The notes under the pieces were generated by a model. It did no database searches. It had not been told where the DNA came from and worked only from the letters and a program-made list of their open reading frames with translations. Of a DNA stretch of 64,000 nucleotides, positions 3 through 42,559 are shown piece after piece. The DNA is from a virus. The position numbers and the translations under genes were made by a program. Location of the stretch: positions 20,770-84,769 of the IMG/VR virus record IMGVR_UViG_3300046318_000144; one strand, written 5' to 3'. Position 1 is the first letter of the stretch. Each line of letters starts with the position of its first letter.

Positions 3-3000
3 GGCGCGACGGGGGCAACTGGTCTAACTGGTGCGACGGGTGCAACGGGAGCTACTGGAGCTCAAGGTGCAACTGGACCACAGGGTGCAACGGGAGCTAC
101 AGGTCCAACTGGTGCTACGGGTGCAACGGGAGCTACAGGTCCAACAGGTGCTACGGGTGCAACGGGAGCCACAGGTGCGCAAGGTATATCTATAACCTAT
201 GTAGGTTCAGTATCTACTGAATCTGCACTACCAACTGACGGGGTATCTGTAAATGACGCTTATATAGTTGATGATATCGGGGATTTATTTGTTTGGGGAA
301 ACTCTGGATGGACTAATGTTGGACAAATTGTTGGTCCAACTGGTTCTCAGGGTATTCAAGGACCGACAGGTGCAACTGGTGCAGTTGGAGCTACTGGAGC
401 TACTGGACCTCAGGGAGCAGTAGGCCCAACAGGGGCAACAGGGGCAACAGGAAGTACTGGCGCTATTGGAGCTACGGGAGCTACTGGAGCTACTGGACCT
501 CAGGGAGCAGTAGGCCCAACAGGTTCAGTTGGAGCAACTGGTGCAACTGGTGCAACGGGTGCTATAGGTGCTACGGGTGCAACAGGTCCACAGGGAACAG
601 AAGGTCCAACTGGACCTCAAGGGTTAGTTGGGTATACTGGACCAACAGGTGCTAATGGTGTAGACGGAGCTACTGGCCCCACAGGTGCAACGGGAGCAAC
701 GGGCGCAACGGGTCCAACAGGAGCTGCTTCAACGGTAACTGGTCCTACGGGTGCGCAAGGTACGACAGGTGCAACGGGCGCGACGGGTGCTACTGGACTT
801 CAAGGTGCAACTGGAGCAACTGGAGCAACTGGTGCTTCTGGTCCTACGGGCGCGACTGGAGCAGTTGGAGCTACGGGTGCTACGGGACCGACTGGTCCTC
901 AGGGGGCAACGGGAGCTACGGGTGCATCAAGCACAGTACCTGGACCTACTGGTTCACAAGGCGTTCAAGGTGTTCAGGGTCCAACTGGCGCACAAGGTGC
1001 TACTGGGGCTACTGGGCCTACGGGACCCATAGGACAGACTGGCCCAACTGGTGCAGCCTCGACAGTCACAGGTCCGACTGGTGCTACTGGACCGACAGGT
1101 CCTACTGGAGCTGACTCAACTGTCACTGGCCCAACGGGCTCGACTGGACCATTAGGAGCTCAGGGACCAACTGGACCAACTGGCTCGCAGGGGCCAACTG
1201 GTGCTACAGGTGAGCGCGGTGGCCTTCACTACACTTTCAGTACAACAACAACAATGTCAGACCCAGGTAATGGGTTTATAAGATTTAACAACGCAACAAT
1301 ATCTTCAGTAACTGCTATAGCAATAGATGATCTAACTAAAGAAGGTACTGATCTATCAAACTATCTACTAACGTTTGATGACTCTACTGCTACATCAGTA
1401 AAAGGTCACTTAATAATTCAAAGTAATACTGCATCAGATGCAACTTACTGCATATTTGCATTAACAGCTTTAACTGATAACGTGGGATGGACTCAGTTTG
1501 CTGTTTCATATGTTTCTGGAACTCTTCCCAGTAACGCAGAAGTAATTTCACTATCCTTTAGCAGATTAGGTGATGTAGGAGCCACTGGTGCTACTGGAGC
1601 TTCTGGTGCAACTGGGCCCACTGGACCATCTGGTGGTCCTACGGGACCCACTGGTGCGACTGGAGCACAAGGTCCACAAGGTCCACAGGGTATTCAAGGT
1701 GTAGAAGGTCCAACTGGACCTGCAGGTGCTGACGGAATTATCGGTGTTGACGGTGCAACTGGTCCTACAGGCCCTACTGGTCCAACAGGTGCTATGGGTG
1801 CAGCTAGCACCGTAACTGGTCCTACAGGTGCAACTGGGCCTACAGGTCCTGCAGGTACCGATGGAATTATCGGTGTTGACGGTGCAACTGGTCCTACAGG
1901 TGCAACTGGTGCGACTGGACCGACTGGAGCTACAGGTGCAACTGGAGCTGACTCAACTGTCACAGGCCCAACTGGTGCGACTGGAGCTACAGGTCCGAGT
2001 GCTACACTATCTGCAACTAATACTGTAGTTGTTGGTAAGTTATCTAGTGATCAATCAATTGCTTCAGCTACTAATGACATACTTATCTCATTCGTAGATG
2101 ATATTGATCCCAATAACTGGTGGGACCCAACAGCTAAGCAATTTAAACCAAACATTGCAGGATACTACAACGTCACTCTACAGGTGTGGTGGACTGCTGC
2201 TGGAACTACAACAAACCAGTACAACGTTCAAATTAGAAAGAATAGCAGCACCTCCGCTATCTTTCAGAACCAGACAGTAACAGGCTCTGGTACATCTCAA
2301 GGTGGAAGCAGGATTATCTACCTCGACGGTTCGACTGACTACATAGATTTCACTGCATACAATGGTGACTCATCATCTAGAAGCCTCCAATGGGGTGGCG
2401 CTGGTCAGGGAACTTGGTTCTCTGCATCACTAACAACTGTAGGTGTCGGAGCAACTGGTCCAACGGGGCCAGCTGGAACTAACGGCACTATTGGTGTTGA
2501 CGGTGCAACTGGACCAACTGGTGCTACAGGACCGACTGGACCATCTGGACATTACACAGTATCTGAAACGGCTCCATCTAGTCCTTCAGTCGGAGATATT
2601 TGGTTTGATTCAGCTACTGGAAGAACTTACATCTACTACGACAGCTACTGGGTAGAATCTTTCTCTAACTTGGTAGGACCCACTGGTCCTCAAGGCCCTA
2701 GTGGCTCTTATTGGAGTAGAGTAGTACTCTCTACATCTATAGCAAACTCCAACGCTACTGCCAACACTCTTGCAGATTTAACTGGTCTAGAGTTTGCAGT
2801 AGTTACAGGAAATACCTACTATTTCAAAGGCATTTTCCAATATACTGCTGCAGCCAATACTACTGGATCTAGGTGGACTATTACTGGCCCAGCTTCTCCT
2901 ACATACCTATCCTTCGAGTCATCAGTTGTAGCCGCCACTACTGGTTCGTACAATATCTTCACTAACAATGCCTACGGGTCACCAGCTGTATCAGCTGCAT

Positions 3001-9988: not shown

Positions 9989-11062
9989 ATGAAAATAGCT
10001 GTATATACAATTGCATTAAATGAAGAGCAGTTTGTTCAATCATGGTTTGACAGTGCTAAAGAAGCTGACTATCTGTTAATAGCTGATACAGGTTCTACCG
10101 ATAAAACTGTAAAGAAAGCTAAAGCCCTCGGGATTAATGTAATCAATGTTGTAGTAAAGCCTTGGCGATTTGATATGGCTAGAAATGCTTCATTAGCAGC
10201 TATACCAGCTGATATAGATTACTGTATTGCTTTAGATATGGATGAAGTACTGCTACCAGGGTGGAGAGAAGAGCTCGAAAAAGCGTTATCTCAGGGAGCA
10301 ACCAGACCTAGATACCAGTACACATGGTCCTGGGAAGATGAAGAAAAGGGCATACCTGGACTTCAATACGGCGGAGATAAGATCCATGCTAGAAATGGCT
10401 ATAGATGGAAGCACCCAGTGCATGAGGTACTGACATCTTACGGTGACTTGCAAGAGACCCAGGTTTGGGTTGACCTAGAGATACACCACCACCCAGATAA
10501 CTCAAAGTCTAGATCCCAGTACATGCCGCTGCTAGCGCAGGCTGTAGCTGAGGATTTATCAGACGATAGAAATGCTTTCTACTATGCTAGAGAGCTGTAC
10601 TTCTACGGAATGTATGAAGATGCTATCAAAGAATTTAACAGACACTTACAGTTACCGAGAGCAGTTTGGCCTCCAGAGAGAGCAGCATCTATGCGATATC
10701 TTGGTAAAATTTATGAGACCTACGGTAATTTTGAAGAAGCTAAACTCTGGTATACCCGCGCTGTAGAACAATCTCCAGGGCGTAGAGAGCCTTTTGTAGA
10801 TTTAGCTAAGCACTATTATGCCGTCCGCGACTGGGAAAACTGCCTAAAAGCCTCGGAGGCTGCGTTAGAGATTCAAGAAAAACCATTAGAATACTTATGC
10901 GAAGCTGAGTCTTGGGGAGCACTGCCTTACGATTTGGCAGCACTATCTTGCTATAACCTTGGCAATAATCCTAAGGCTTTGGAGTATAACGAAGAAGCTC
11001 TTAAATTAGATCCAAGTAATCTAAGACTTATAGAAAACCATCAGTTTTATTCTGCCGATTAG
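9989..11062 (+). CDS. GT2 glycosyltransferase with C-terminal TPR-like repeats
   Basis: The N-terminal domain (~1-190) is a GT-A family 2 fold: NEEQ after the first strand, D33-T-G-S-T-D, and the metal-binding D83-M-D85-E triad. An HHHPDNSKSR segment lies near residue 165. The C-terminal half is built of TPR-like helical hairpins (for example EAKLWYTRAVEQSP near residue 250 and a final NNPKALEYNEEALKLDP near 335). The layout resembles SPbeta SunS-type glycosyltransferases, where the helical part holds an acceptor peptide. It may glycosylate a virion protein, modified DNA or a host surface component. It ends 35 bases inside the convergent WhiB gene, so the two 3' ends overlap antisense. Confidence 0.85.
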   Translation: MKIAVYTIALNEEQFVQSWFDSAKEADYLLIADTGSTDKTVKKAKALGINVINVVVKPWRFDMARNASLAAIPADIDYCIALDMDEVLLPGWREELEKALSQGATRPRYQYTWSWEDEEKGIPGLQYGGDKIHARNGYRWKHPVHEVLTSYGDLQETQVWVDLEIHHHPDNSKSRSQYMPLLAQAVAEDLSDDRNAFYYARELYFYGMYEDAIKEFNRHLQLPRAVWPPERAASMRYLGKIYETYGNFEEAKLWYTRAVEQSPGRREPFVDLAKHYYAVRDWENCLKASEAALEIQEKPLEYLCEAESWGALPYDLAALSCYNLGNNPKALEYNEEALKLDPSNLRLIENHQFYSAD

Positions 11063-11549
11063 ATTTACGTAAAGCTTCTATTTCTTTTCTATTACGTGAT
11101 ACTTTTTCAGCCCACTGAGCTTTATAGACATCAATAGCATTAGCACTTGTCCTGCTCTGCCATGTAAAATCACATATTGAACATTCGACTACTCTCATGG
11201 TTGCCCATCGACCACCACCAGGTCTATCAACAGTCTTAGTCATTAAATCCAAAGTACTGGCTGCGCATAGCGGACATCTTGGAGGTTTAATCCTTCTAAC
11301 TTCTTGACCTTCCCAGTTGACAGATAGAGTCTTTTTTATTTCTCTCTCATCATTTCCGCCCCACACTCCCCATATTTGTTTATTTTCGAGAGCCCAGTTT
11401 AGACAAGCATCTTGCACTGGGCATTTAAAACACAACTCTTTGGCTGCTAACTTATCACTAATTTTATTAGAGAAAAATAATTCCATTTTGTCATTATTCT
11501 CTGACTTGGCGCATTCAGCACTATCGCCCCAACTAGGGTCATATATCAT
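11028..11549 (-). CDS. WhiB-family regulator fused to a C-terminal zinc ribbon
   Basis: Residues 1-75 carry the WhiB signature: four cysteines C13, C40, C43, C49 (C-x26-C-xx-C-x5-C) for a [4Fe-4S] cluster, then the GVWGG turn at residues 61-65. WhiB proteins are confined to actinobacteria and their phages, so this is the best host marker in the window. After the GVWGG turn the protein does not end as short phage WhiBs do: it continues with C92-P-x-C95 and C123-S-x-C126, a probable zinc ribbon, and a basic C-terminal helix. TM4 phage WhiB is known to interfere with host WhiB2 and septation; a takeover or phage-promoter role is inferred here. The gene starts in a 4-base overlap (ATGA) with the upstream gene. 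Confidence 0.9.
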   Translation of the reverse strand: MIYDPSWGDSAECAKSENNDKMELFFSNKISDKLAAKELCFKCPVQDACLNWALENKQIWGVWGGNDEREIKKTLSVNWEGQEVRRIKPPRCPLCAASTLDLMTKTVDRPGGGRWATMRVVECSICDFTWQSRTSANAIDVYKAQWAEKVSRNRKEIEALRKSNRQNKTDGFL

Positions 11550-11955: not shown

Positions 11956-12444
11956 TTATACAGGCCAAATATATTCGTAAGTTTCTGGACGTACTCCAGT
12001 ATCTTCAGGCCACTTAAACTGTGAATACCACTCATAGTCTTTATTTAGTAGCGCAGTTCTATGGCTAGATGCTATGAGTGAGAAGTCATTCATATTTGAC
12101 ATCCAGTATGGGTTTGTTGTTGGACGTGAGAGTAGCTCGAGTTCTATAGCACGCGCGATAGTTGCTTTTGCTTTATCACCAATAGTGGACTTATAGCCAC
12201 GACGCTTCCACTCAGTAACCATTGCTTGGATATATAGATACAAAGTCATCTCATGCCCGCGCCACATTTTTACAGCTGGATGATTTACCCAACCTTTGGG
12301 GATACGATGATTTCCCTGAGGATCTAGCTCAAGTAGGGTCATTAGGATTTGCCAGCCTTCAAGGGCTTGCTTGTTGAGACGGGCACGGTCTAGCGTGCGA
12401 GCGATGTCGTCAAAAGACGAAGTAAGCGGTACAAATGTTTGCAT
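11956..12444 (-). CDS. MSMEG_6728-like protein, probable pyrimidine-dimer DNA glycosylase
   Basis: The 162-residue protein follows a known actinobacterial pattern: MQTF start, ARTLDRARLNKQ (residues ~15-26), WQIL, then GWVNHPAVKMWRGHE (residues ~51-65) and WKRRGY. Proteins of this family are commonly annotated as MSMEG_6728 family or endonuclease V-like pyrimidine-dimer glycosylases; I recall that name from general knowledge and have not tested it by search. A UV-damage repair role would suit a phage of sunlit water. The gene has its own strong promoter, appears leaderless, and its start codon is the centre of a 12-bp palindrome (see the regulatory entry). Confidence 0.7.
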   Translation of the reverse strand: MQTFVPLTSSFDDIARTLDRARLNKQALEGWQILMTLLELDPQGNHRIPKGWVNHPAVKMWRGHEMTLYLYIQAMVTEWKRRGYKSTIGDKAKATIARAIELELLSRPTTNPYWMSNMNDFSLIASSHRTALLNKDYEWYSQFKWPEDTGVRPETYEYIWPV

Positions 12445-12479
12445 ATAAACACTGTACCGCTTACTTTTTATTTTGTCAA
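12421..12479 (-). promoter_or_regulatory. Leaderless promoter with palindromic operator over the start codon
   Basis: On the minus strand a perfect -35 TTGACA (12474-12479) and a -10 TACAGT (12451-12456) are separated by 17 bases. The ATG at 12444 begins seven bases after the -10, where transcription should start, so the mRNA would be leaderless. Two perfect 12-base arms (12421-12432 and 12454-12465) flank it, and the palindrome centre (12443) is the middle base of the ATG. One arm covers the -10 and spacer and the other lies in codons 5-8. It could be an operator or, in any longer read-through RNA, a hairpin exposing the start codon in its loop. Confidence 0.7.
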
Positions 12480-12482
12480 GTA

Positions 12483-12740
12483 TTAAAGAGAATATGTTGT
12501 AGTGATTGAGGGTGGTCGTACAACCGAGTTCTTAAGGTTAGCCTGAGCAGTGATTTGATATAGGTTATCACCACTAGCTACAGTTTCTTCAAAACTATTG
12601 GTTACTGACATTTCTAAGTCCAACATAACTTTAGCATCTTCAACACTAACCATAAGAAATTTACTAGCTTCTACATATACAGACTCTTTAGCAGACACTA
12701 AATCATTCGCATAAACTGTTAGTTTAAAATGTACTCTCAT
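12483..12740 (-). CDS. Hypothetical protein, 85 aa
   Basis: I do not recognise this small protein. It has 85 residues, begins with a strand-like MRVHFKLTVYA segment, and contains alternating helix and strand patterns without cysteines, membrane segments or enzymatic motifs. The start overlaps the stop of the upstream gene by one base (TAATG), which argues for real coupled translation. It ends just beyond the -35 box of the glycosylase promoter, so no spacer remains between the two units. Confidence 0.6.
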   Translation of the reverse strand: MRVHFKLTVYANDLVSAKESVYVEASKFLMVSVEDAKVMLDLEMSVTNSFEETVASGDNLYQITAQANLKNSVVRPPSITTTYSL

Positions 12741-14249: not shown

Positions 14250-14831
14250 TTAGAATGGAGCTTCGTCAGTCGAGAGTGCAACTGCAGGAGCAGGAGCTGG
14301 AGCCACTGCAGGAGCAGGAGCTGGAGCTGGAGCTGGAGCAGGTGCAGCAGCTACAGGAGCTGCAGCAGGGGCTGGTGCAGGGGCTGGAGCGGCAGCAGCT
14401 ACAGGAGCTGCAGCAGCTGATGGTGCAACGAGAGGGAAGTAATCCTTAATCTCGTTACGCTTCTGACCCTGCCAGGTACGAGAACCAATACGTCCACGGA
14501 AAGGACGGTTCAAAAGAGCCGCCTCAATCTGTGCATTAGTAGGGTTCTGGTCGAAGTAGCTACGTGGTAGTCCAAGAGCTTCCATCTTCTTAAAGAAGAT
14601 AGCGAGTGCAGTAGAGTTGCCAGTGCTTACTACTAGGTTGTCCCAGATGAGACGCTTGTTGTGCGCTCCACCCTGAACTTCAGCCTTCACAGAGAACATC
14701 TGCTTGCCTGACTGAGATAGCTTTGAAGAAGCTTCCAAGACCTTTAGGTCATAGTCGCCATCTGGAAGAGGCTCGTAAGAGCTTGTCTCTCCAGCTTCCT
14801 TGATGATGTCGCTCCAATTGAGTGAACTCAT
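14250..14831 (-). CDS. Single-stranded DNA-binding protein-like, Ala/Pro linker and acidic tip
   Basis: Residues ~20-135 form a probable OB-fold of the phage SSB/DUF669-like type (DGDYDLKVLEA, SGKQMFSVKAEV, RLIWDNLVV). This is followed by a ~50-residue Ala/Pro-only linker and an acidic tip ending in DEAPF. The architecture OB fold, flexible linker, acidic hydrophobic tip parallels bacterial SSB, whose D-D-I-P-F end recruits partner enzymes. The placement at the head of the Sak4-nuclease-helicase-polymerase block supports this. It probably coats phage ssDNA during replication and recombination. The linker is low complexity at the DNA level and produces misleading antisense frames. Confidence 0.75.
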   Translation of the reverse strand: MSSLNWSDIIKEAGETSSYEPLPDGDYDLKVLEASSKLSQSGKQMFSVKAEVQGGAHNKRLIWDNLVVSTGNSTALAIFFKKMEALGLPRSYFDQNPTNAQIEAALLNRPFRGRIGSRTWQGQKRNEIKDYFPLVAPSAAAAPVAAAAPAPAPAPAAAPVAAAPAPAPAPAPAPAVAPAPAPAVALSTDEAPF

Positions 14832-40499: not shown

Positions 40500-42497
40500 T
40501 TAGTACTCTACAGCAGCTGCGGTAGCGCCACCAGTGGTGTCGCGAAGTGCTGCAGCAACACCGTTAACCGAGATGCTTGAGGTGATCTTGAGAGACTCAA
40601 TACCAACCTTAGCCACGTTCTCGAAGGTCTCAACGAACATCTTGTAGTCGTTGGTGCCAACCAGTGACGAGTCACGGATGATACCAAGGTCAAGAGTTCC
40701 ACCGTCAAGGAACAAGAATGTTCCCTCGGCGAAGAGATACCAGCTGAATGTGTCTGGGAACTCAAGCAGACCAGTTGCACCCTGAGCACCGAAGTAGTTC
40801 AGGTCTGGAGAAGCAACGAGTGAAACGTTGCTGTGCGATAGGTAGCCGTCAATCTCAGCCTTCGATACTGACAGAGTACCATCACCAGGCATAGCCAGGG
40901 TGAGGTCAGCTGCCATTGCATCGTATACCCACTGAGGAACAATAGCCTTCAGCTGAGTAGTTGCAGAGATGCGGTGACGTGAGCGGTAAGCAACTGCAGC
41001 ACGACGGATCTGTACTAGGAAGTCACGACCGAAACCGATAAGTGACGAAGTAGTAACAGCGGTTGAAGCGTCACCAATCTTGGTAAGAAGGTTTACTTCA
41101 GCCTCGCGTGCGTGCTGTACAAGAGCTAGCTCGTTGTGACGAGCAATCAACTCTGGGTAAGCACGAGTCATCAAGTTACCGAACTGGAGCTGTAGGGTTA
41201 CAGCGTCAGTTGAAACAGTCTGCTCTGCAGCAGCTGAAACGGCGAGTGATGACTTAGTTGCTGTATCAGGGTCTGCGTCAACTGCAGCAGTCCAGATACC
41301 AACGGCGTCAGCGTAGTCACCCGAAGCAAAGCTTGGAGGAGTTACGAAGCGGATACCGCCACGGTCAGCCTGGAAGCGAGGGAGTGAGTCACGGATTGGA
41401 CGCTCGGTGGTTGAACCAAGACCGAAGATGTCATACTTAACCTCGAAAGGTGCAGCGTGACCACCAGAAGCAACAAGTGCTTCCTGGCCAGAAACGGCAC
41501 TAATCTTCAGCTGGTTTGCCTCTGAATCGGTTGTCAGAGTGCGTGACTCTGGGAACTGAGTGGTGATAGATGCAACAATGTGCTGCTCTCCATCTCCACC
41601 GTTGACACGACGAAGCGAGTGGATACGCTTTTCCATAGCCGAAGCTACTTCGTTCATGTCGTTAATTGTGCTTCCCGCTGTGTAACCAGGGATGTCAGCA
41701 CCAGCAGTAATTGCAACTGGGGCCTCTGTTACCTGAATTACAGGCTGACGGTCAGCTGGAGCCTCGAAAGGCTGTTCTGCTGCGGCGGTCACGGTTGCCT
41801 GCTCTTCCTGCTCTTCTGGAGCAATAGTGTTTTCTTGGGTTGATGCCTCTGAGCCTTCAACAGCTTCTGCTGCAGTTTCTGAAGTTTCTTCGGCGGAGAA
41901 TTCTGCCACTGTGGCAGATGCCTCGGTTGATTCTTCAGTAGATTCCTCTACTGCGTCTTCTGGGTCGCTAGTCGACAGTTCTGATCCGTCTTCTTCGATT
42001 GTTGATGCTGTTTCAGTTTCCGAAGCGAAAGCCTTTTTAGGTTCCTTCTCTTCTTCTTCTTGGGTCTCTCCGATTTCCTCTTCAGTGGTCTCGGGCTCTT
42101 GGCCTTCGATCTCTGCAGGAGCTTCCTCTACTGGAGCTGCCTCTTCAGGCATCTCTTCAGTAGGGGTCATTTCCTCTGCAGGAGTTTCCTCTTCTGGGGT
42201 CATATCGGCTAGTTCCTCTCCATCAGTTGCGACGTCTTCGGTGCTTTCGCCCTTAACGCGTGAGATAGCCTCAGCAGCCTTGGCAGCTAGCTCTGCAGCT
42301 AGTGCCTCGCGGCGTGAAAGCTCACCTCGCACTGTGTCAAGTGCATTAGCAAGTGACGTCATAGCATCAACCGTCTCAGGAGTCGGCTCTTCGCCTTCGA
42401 CCGATTCAAACTCGCTAACGATCTGTGACTGAAGTTCGCCGACTTGTTCGTCGGTTAGCTCCGCCATAGCGTCAAGCTGGGTATTGATGTGGTCCAC
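40500..42497 (-). CDS. HK97-fold major capsid protein with long acidic N-terminal (scaffold/delta) domain
   Basis: The start is a GTG at 42497 with an ideal AAGGAGGT four bases upstream. The 665 residues divide in two. Residues ~1-260 are very rich in Glu, Ala, Thr and Pro, with an N-terminal helical region and long EEE/PEE runs, and are probably a delta/scaffold-like domain. The C-terminal ~375 residues follow the actinophage major capsid pattern (FRxRHR-like segment IRRAAVAYRSRHRISATTQL near residue 510, VPQWVYDAMAADL, late FETFENVAKVGI region). The N-terminal part is presumably cleaved by the large maturation protease encoded upstream. The strong ribosome site and hairpin signals match high expression. 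Confidence 0.88.
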   Translation of the reverse strand: MDHINTQLDAMAELTDEQVGELQSQIVSEFESVEGEEPTPETVDAMTSLANALDTVRGELSRREALAAELAAKAAEAISRVKGESTEDVATDGEELADMTPEEETPAEEMTPTEEMPEEAAPVEEAPAEIEGQEPETTEEEIGETQEEEEKEPKKAFASETETASTIEEDGSELSTSDPEDAVEESTEESTEASATVAEFSAEETSETAAEAVEGSEASTQENTIAPEEQEEQATVTAAAEQPFEAPADRQPVIQVTEAPVAITAGADIPGYTAGSTINDMNEVASAMEKRIHSLRRVNGGDGEQHIVASITTQFPESRTLTTDSEANQLKISAVSGQEALVASGGHAAPFEVKYDIFGLGSTTERPIRDSLPRFQADRGGIRFVTPPSFASGDYADAVGIWTAAVDADPDTATKSSLAVSAAAEQTVSTDAVTLQLQFGNLMTRAYPELIARHNELALVQHAREAEVNLLTKIGDASTAVTTSSLIGFGRDFLVQIRRAAVAYRSRHRISATTQLKAIVPQWVYDAMAADLTLAMPGDGTLSVSKAEIDGYLSHSNVSLVASPDLNYFGAQGATGLLEFPDTFSWYLFAEGTFLFLDGGTLDLGIIRDSSLVGTNDYKMFVETFENVAKVGIESLKITSSISVNGVAAALRDTTGGATAAAVEY

Positions 42498-42521
42498 TGT
42501 ACCTCCTTAGGCCAGTTAATT

Positions 42522-42559
42522 TAATAAACGCGATTTACGTTTATTAGGTGAACAGTCAA
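42522..42559 (-). promoter_or_regulatory. Candidate capsid promoter with inverted repeat over the -10
   Basis: On the minus strand TTGACT (42554-42559) and TAAATC (42532-42537) are spaced by 16 bases. A perfect 9-base inverted repeat (42522-42530 and 42538-42546) brackets the -10-like box with a 7-base spacer, as an operator would. It lies between the protease gene and the capsid ribosome site. The -10 match is poor, so the promoter is a suggestion; the inverted repeat is clear. Confidence 0.4.

Follow-up and report, generated by a model that had tools for sequence, protein, structure and literature searches.

The window analysed here, a stretch of 64,000 nucleotides, is taken from an IMG/VR viral contig of 84.8 kb (bases 20770-84769). 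The locus of interest lies on its minus strand, where a perfect palindrome spans the start codon of a gene of the pyrimidine dimer DNA glycosylase family; the same palindrome was found in nine other phage contigs (together the ten palindrome phages). The features of the locus, in window coordinates and in the order of transcription, are as follows.

12483..12740, minus strand: 85-aa co-directional upstream ORF, the likely source of read-through; an ORF of similar size stands there in 10/10 palindrome phages
12474..12479, minus strand: -35 hexamer TTGACA, directly after the stop codon of the upstream gene
12453..12466, minus strand: left (5') arm of the palindrome, AAGTAAGCGGTACA; non-coding; lies in the -35/-10 spacer, overlaps the -10 hexamer and falls outside the predicted leaderless transcript
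12451..12456, minus strand: -10 hexamer TACAGT; TACANT in 10/10 palindrome phages
12447..12451, minus strand: inner left arm TGTTT, which pairs with AAACA at 12436-12440
12442..12444, minus strand: ATG start codon, with the predicted +1 at 12444; apical loop of the predicted read-through hairpin
12420..12433, minus strand: right (3') arm of the palindrome, TGTACCGCTTACTT; coding, from the last base of codon 4 to the first base of codon 9
11956..12444, minus strand: 162-aa gene, Pfam PF03013 Pyr_excise (pyrimidine dimer DNA glycosylase family)

The 162-aa protein matched PF03013 with 63.7 bits against a gathering score of 23, and the family behind the "UV-repair enzyme" of the earlier note is thus clear, but the support stopped there: the NCBIfam model NF038085 (MSMEG_6728 family) scored below its cut-off, and no solved structure matched the protein by sequence. 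The T4 enzyme relies on a catalytic N-terminal threonine, Thr2; the protein studied here starts with M-Q-T, not M-T, in nearly all relatives, and a threonine at position 2 was not found. We would therefore use "UV-repair enzyme" as a family name only. The genome scan returned no bacterial homologues of the gene. The nearest isolate that carries it is Actinomycetia phage DSL-LC01, obtained from a lake, with 50% protein identity, in which the glycosylase, hypothetical protein and WhiB genes stand in the same order. In the window, a WhiB-family gene is located at 11028-11549, two genes downstream of the glycosylase-family gene, and positions 14250-14831 encode an SSB-like protein whose tail is a long Pro-Ala repeat (PAPAPA).

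The order of elements on the minus strand, namely TTGACA (12479-12474), a 17-nt spacer, TACAGT (12456-12451), 6 nt and ATG (12444-12442), confirmed the promoter that had been read from the sequence before. It was the best-scoring promoter-like site between 11000 and 14500, and a search of the whole window for TTGACA-16/18-TANNNT-3..9-ATG/GTG, with at most one mismatch in TTGACA and an ORF of at least 50 aa required, gave this promoter as its single match. A protein search of viral contigs with the gene product yielded 122 relatives, 80 of which were kept, and the window and its relatives, read around the start codon, provided 65 distinct promoters. Exactly 6 nt separated the -10 hexamer from ATG, without a Shine-Dalgarno (SD) sequence, in 29/65 (17-nt spacer in 28, 16-nt in one), while shuffled upstream regions gave about 0.1 such matches per set; in 21/65 the gap was 22-30 nt, and almost all of these had an SD-like sequence. 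After a wider DNA scan, the distinct leaderless starts of the gene numbered 49 in all. This geometry was almost exclusive to the glycosylase-family gene, being found at a handful of other ORFs in 1.2 Mb of loci (overlaps included). Leaderless genes are common in Actinobacteria, the presumed hosts, and in bacterial leaderless genes TANNNT precedes the start codon by about 12 bp (PMC3160421); likewise, TANNNT lies about 12 bp 5' of the start codon here, and no SD sequence precedes it. Because the promoter is conserved with a fixed spacing between -10 and ATG, +1 should fall at or next to the A of ATG, and the leaderless start proposed in the earlier note is strongly supported by the comparison of homologues. 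Unlike the leaderless genes described for Actinobacteria (PMC3160421), the promoter here has a conserved dyad across the start codon. A second leaderless promoter class of the gene, with a motif near TGCTAnnTTnTAGnT directly 5' of ATG (-16 to +3), was observed in L075, L108, L110, L112, L116, L123, L126, L128 and other contigs and was absent from the palindrome phages.

The palindrome has perfect arms of 14 nt and a loop of 19 nt, and its centre, position 12443, is the T of ATG; the perfect arms and their centring on the middle base of the start codon had been noticed earlier, with an arm length of 12 nt that needs correction. Relative to the inferred +1, the left arm spans -22 to -9 and the whole dyad -22 to +25. 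It was the top inverted repeat of the whole window. Among 60 windows simulated with a first-order Markov model, 8/60 contained perfect arms of at least 12 nt with a loop of at most 60 nt, and 1/60 contained arms of at least 14 nt, so the chance odds alone are modest evidence for the palindrome. Chance was ruled out by nine further contigs, in which this palindrome recurs at the corresponding position. A search of Rfam gave only sub-threshold, microRNA-like matches at the hairpin, of a kind that long hairpins in general may produce. Elsewhere in the window, an imperfect inverted repeat at 42515-42553, between two minus-strand ORFs and 18-56 nt upstream of a GTG at 42497, is a possible terminator.

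The viral contigs were searched for AAGCGGTACA-8..30-TGTACCGCTT, which gave nine relatives and three other contigs. In the nine relatives the palindrome stands at the same gene and the loop is always 19 nt, and the carriers make up 10/49 of the leaderless members (the window, L003, L004, L018, L019, L021, L022, L023, L028 and L033). The three others, L092 (intergenic), L093 (inside a 1526-aa ORF) and L094, contain similar hairpins with loops of 26, 12 and 22 nt and were judged unrelated. The earlier note had made conservation of the arms, where coding allows variation, a touchstone of its proposal, and this conservation was found. The 12-nt core of the left arm, GTAAGCGGTACA, was identical at 12/12 bases in 10/10 phages, with mean identities beside it of 54% in the adjacent spacer and 55% in the upstream gene; between the window and the more distant seven (L018-L033), the upstream gene was 46% identical. 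In the right arm, the pairwise synonymous difference of codons 4-8 was 0.000 among the ten phages, compared with 0.476 over the remaining codons and 0.424 at the same codons of non-palindromic leaderless relatives, and no other five-codon run was as low. The synonymous sites of codons 3-8 were frozen in the palindrome phages; codons 10-12 were nearly frozen too, and the freeze thus extends beyond the right arm. The inner left arm TGTTT was present in 9/10 palindrome phages and in 0/39 other leaderless homologues. We conclude that the palindrome is very probably a conserved element that regulates a leaderless promoter.

On the protein tree the palindrome is patchy, with non-palindromic members interspersed, and in the non-palindromic phages nothing more than stray arms with one mismatch, or the coding arm, was seen. 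The right arm, TGTACCGCTTAC, occurs without a left arm in the close relatives L024 and L031 and in the distant, SD-led L050 and L051. Both the lone right arm and the patchy distribution might be read as signs of a mutational relic, in which the left arm arose by template switching as an inverted copy of the coding arm and was kept, functionless, by quasi-palindrome correction or recent spread. We regard such an origin without function as improbable: the left-arm core is identical at every base, while flanks just a few bases from it have drifted, and a recent transfer would have brought the flanks along.

A protein operator is a more serious alternative, though a rather doubtful one. A phage or host regulator would bind both arms as double-stranded DNA and block the -10 and start region, and the hairpin potential would be a by-product. 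The base-specific conservation expected of an operator is present in the dyad, where both arms are frozen nearly base for base in ten phages, including the four-fold sites of codons 5, 6 and 8, and where the synonymous difference vanishes in codons 4-8 alone; an extent of -22 to +25 would also be ideal for steric blocking. However, each palindrome phage contig holds the full palindrome only once, and TAAGCGGTACA-17..21-TGTACCGCTTA had no match in a genome collection of 84,980 species. Neither further promoter copies nor a linked regulator was found in these searches, which single-site regulons and diverged host sites could escape. A rough ORF comparison by eye covered incomplete contigs of five palindrome and four non-palindrome phages and recognised no regulator gene peculiar to the palindrome phages, the ORFs obtained being structural-looking, unidentified or spurious-looking; the WhiB and HTH proteins named earlier as candidate binders were accordingly not implicated among these five. 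Moreover, an operator would require its half-site to coincide with a coding sequence found in relatives without the partner arm, arms of 12-14 bp that lie 31-33 bp apart are long for a single dimer site, and in L033 the inner TGTTT is shifted by one base relative to the outer arm.

The best explanation, to which we assign a probability of about 0.48, would be a fold-back element embedded in the promoter of a leaderless gene: a hairpin in read-through RNA would block the start, and only messages from the gene's own promoter would be translated. Read-through RNA from the upstream operon would hold both arms and form a hairpin (about -23 to -31 kcal/mol) whose loop contains the AUG and whose stem takes in codons 2-8. 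Ribosomes finishing the upstream gene 35-41 nt away, or landing internally, would be unable to start at the buried AUG. RNA from the gene's own promoter would start at the AUG without the left arm, stay unfolded and be translated by the leaderless route, and the glycosylase-family protein would thus be made only when this promoter fires. Since the left arm lies upstream of +1, only the read-through RNA would form the hairpin.

Several lines of evidence bear on this fold-back. In each of the ten phages, the left arm paired with the start region more strongly than in 300/300 shuffles (z -5.7 to -7.7), whereas the gene's own transcript had a predicted fold of only -1.2 to -1.5 kcal/mol. In the window the inner TGTTT/AAACA pair lengthens the hairpin, with a predicted fold of -31 kcal/mol (z = -8), and the inner stem is kept in two registers among the palindrome phages. 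In 10/10 the upstream gene has the same orientation, and its stop codon lies 35-41 nt away. Since relatives carry the coding arm by itself, the left arm seems to have been shaped to match the coding sequence, and this lone coding arm would favour pairing over a protein operator. Both mechanisms of the earlier note, a bound regulator and a read-through hairpin, still stand, with the hairpin now appearing the likelier.

Other findings speak against the fold-back. Its main weakness is that the read-through RNA has no SD sequence before this AUG and would be poorly translated in any case, so that the hairpin may be partly redundant; its value would then probably lie in preventing re-initiation by ribosomes leaving the upstream gene. 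Covariation is thin, with one compensatory cell (T-A to C-G in L023, both sides changed) and one G-U (an outer-arm G-C pair in L033), a level equalled by 49/500 shuffles. Furthermore, all 12 core bases are frozen, including free synonymous sites, as a protein site would show, and this freeze exceeds what a hairpin of -25 kcal/mol should need.

The hairpin may also help to stop read-through transcription, a T-rich stretch following the stem. In its strict form, this would make the palindrome an intrinsic terminator or attenuator that serves the upstream operon from within the beginning of the following gene, and the tail TTCKTCTTTT after the 12-bp stem in 10/10 palindrome phages, with codons 10-11 frozen as TCT TTT, agrees with it. 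We nevertheless think a terminator unlikely: the tail is interrupted and is also present in the non-palindromic L024 and L031, the non-palindromic relatives have no hairpin at that place, and a terminator scan did not report the palindrome, a result constrained by the scan's loop limit of 8 and its T-run rule. A terminator on the plus strand, with the hairpin followed by TTTTTATTTT, was rejected: most of the other nine phages do not conserve the T run, and the site is not the end of any plus-strand gene.

Three SD-led relatives, L005, L011 and L015, have a different hairpin, in which AACCCTTTCT between -35 and -10 pairs with AGAAAGGGTT over the SD sequence (L005:1899-1940; about 10-50 nt upstream of the gene start in L011 and L015). 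It is perfect and unrelated in sequence to the palindrome, with the same geometry, and the proteins of the three contigs are not each other's closest relatives on the protein tree. This hairpin could serve SD sequestration on read-through RNA, or it could be a terminator nested in the promoter. The hairpins of L011 and L015 end in GGGTTTTT, a point in favour of termination at the palindrome as well; as parallels of the fold-back the three are weakened by this resemblance to terminators and by similar hairpins elsewhere. It is a tentative proposal, somewhat less secure than the fold-back itself, that one DNA segment, the -10 with its preceding spacer, is complementary to the gene's first codons and acts both as promoter for a translatable 5'-AUG message and as lock on every read-through message, and that a similar geometry was reached separately in the SD-led relatives. 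Two further relatives may be mentioned: L076 has a hairpin upstream of the start, weak against shuffles (11/200), with its left arm GCCAGCTACT between -35 and -10 and its right arm AGTAGGCTGG adjoining the start codon, and L045 has a palindrome, TTAGGTTGTATAACCTAA, over the -10 region about 30 nt upstream of the start, a possible regulator site.

To our knowledge, it is not established how a phage silences a nested leaderless gene on polycistronic RNA. The T4 genes e, soc, 49 and I-TevI each lie within a longer transcription unit, and a hairpin over the start region forms only on long read-through transcripts (PMC3014915, PMC2988022). The palindrome would resemble the T4 gene e type in that its stem is predicted to sequester the AUG on longer transcripts and in that the promoter lies inside the region encoding the 5' strand, leaving a short transcript without it, given the +1 inferred here. 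It differs from the T4 cases in that the short transcript is predicted to be leaderless, the AUG and codons 2-8 rather than an SD sequence would be buried, the promoter is sigma-70-like and not a T4 late promoter, and phage and gene are unrelated. I-TevI also represses itself through an operator that overlaps its late promoter (PMC2988022). A fold-back hairpin and a DNA operator can thus overlap one phage promoter, and the two readings of the palindrome need not exclude each other, although here no regulator or second binding site is known.

If the operator were true, it would imply that a repair-family gene of freshwater actinophages, most of them uncultured, is controlled by a regulator not yet known. 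If the fold-back is true, which a natural series of homologues, ten with and 39 without the palindrome, makes testable, the principle of T4 gene e would have been moved to a leaderless start, and the leaderless and leadered RNAs of one gene would differ sharply in translation.
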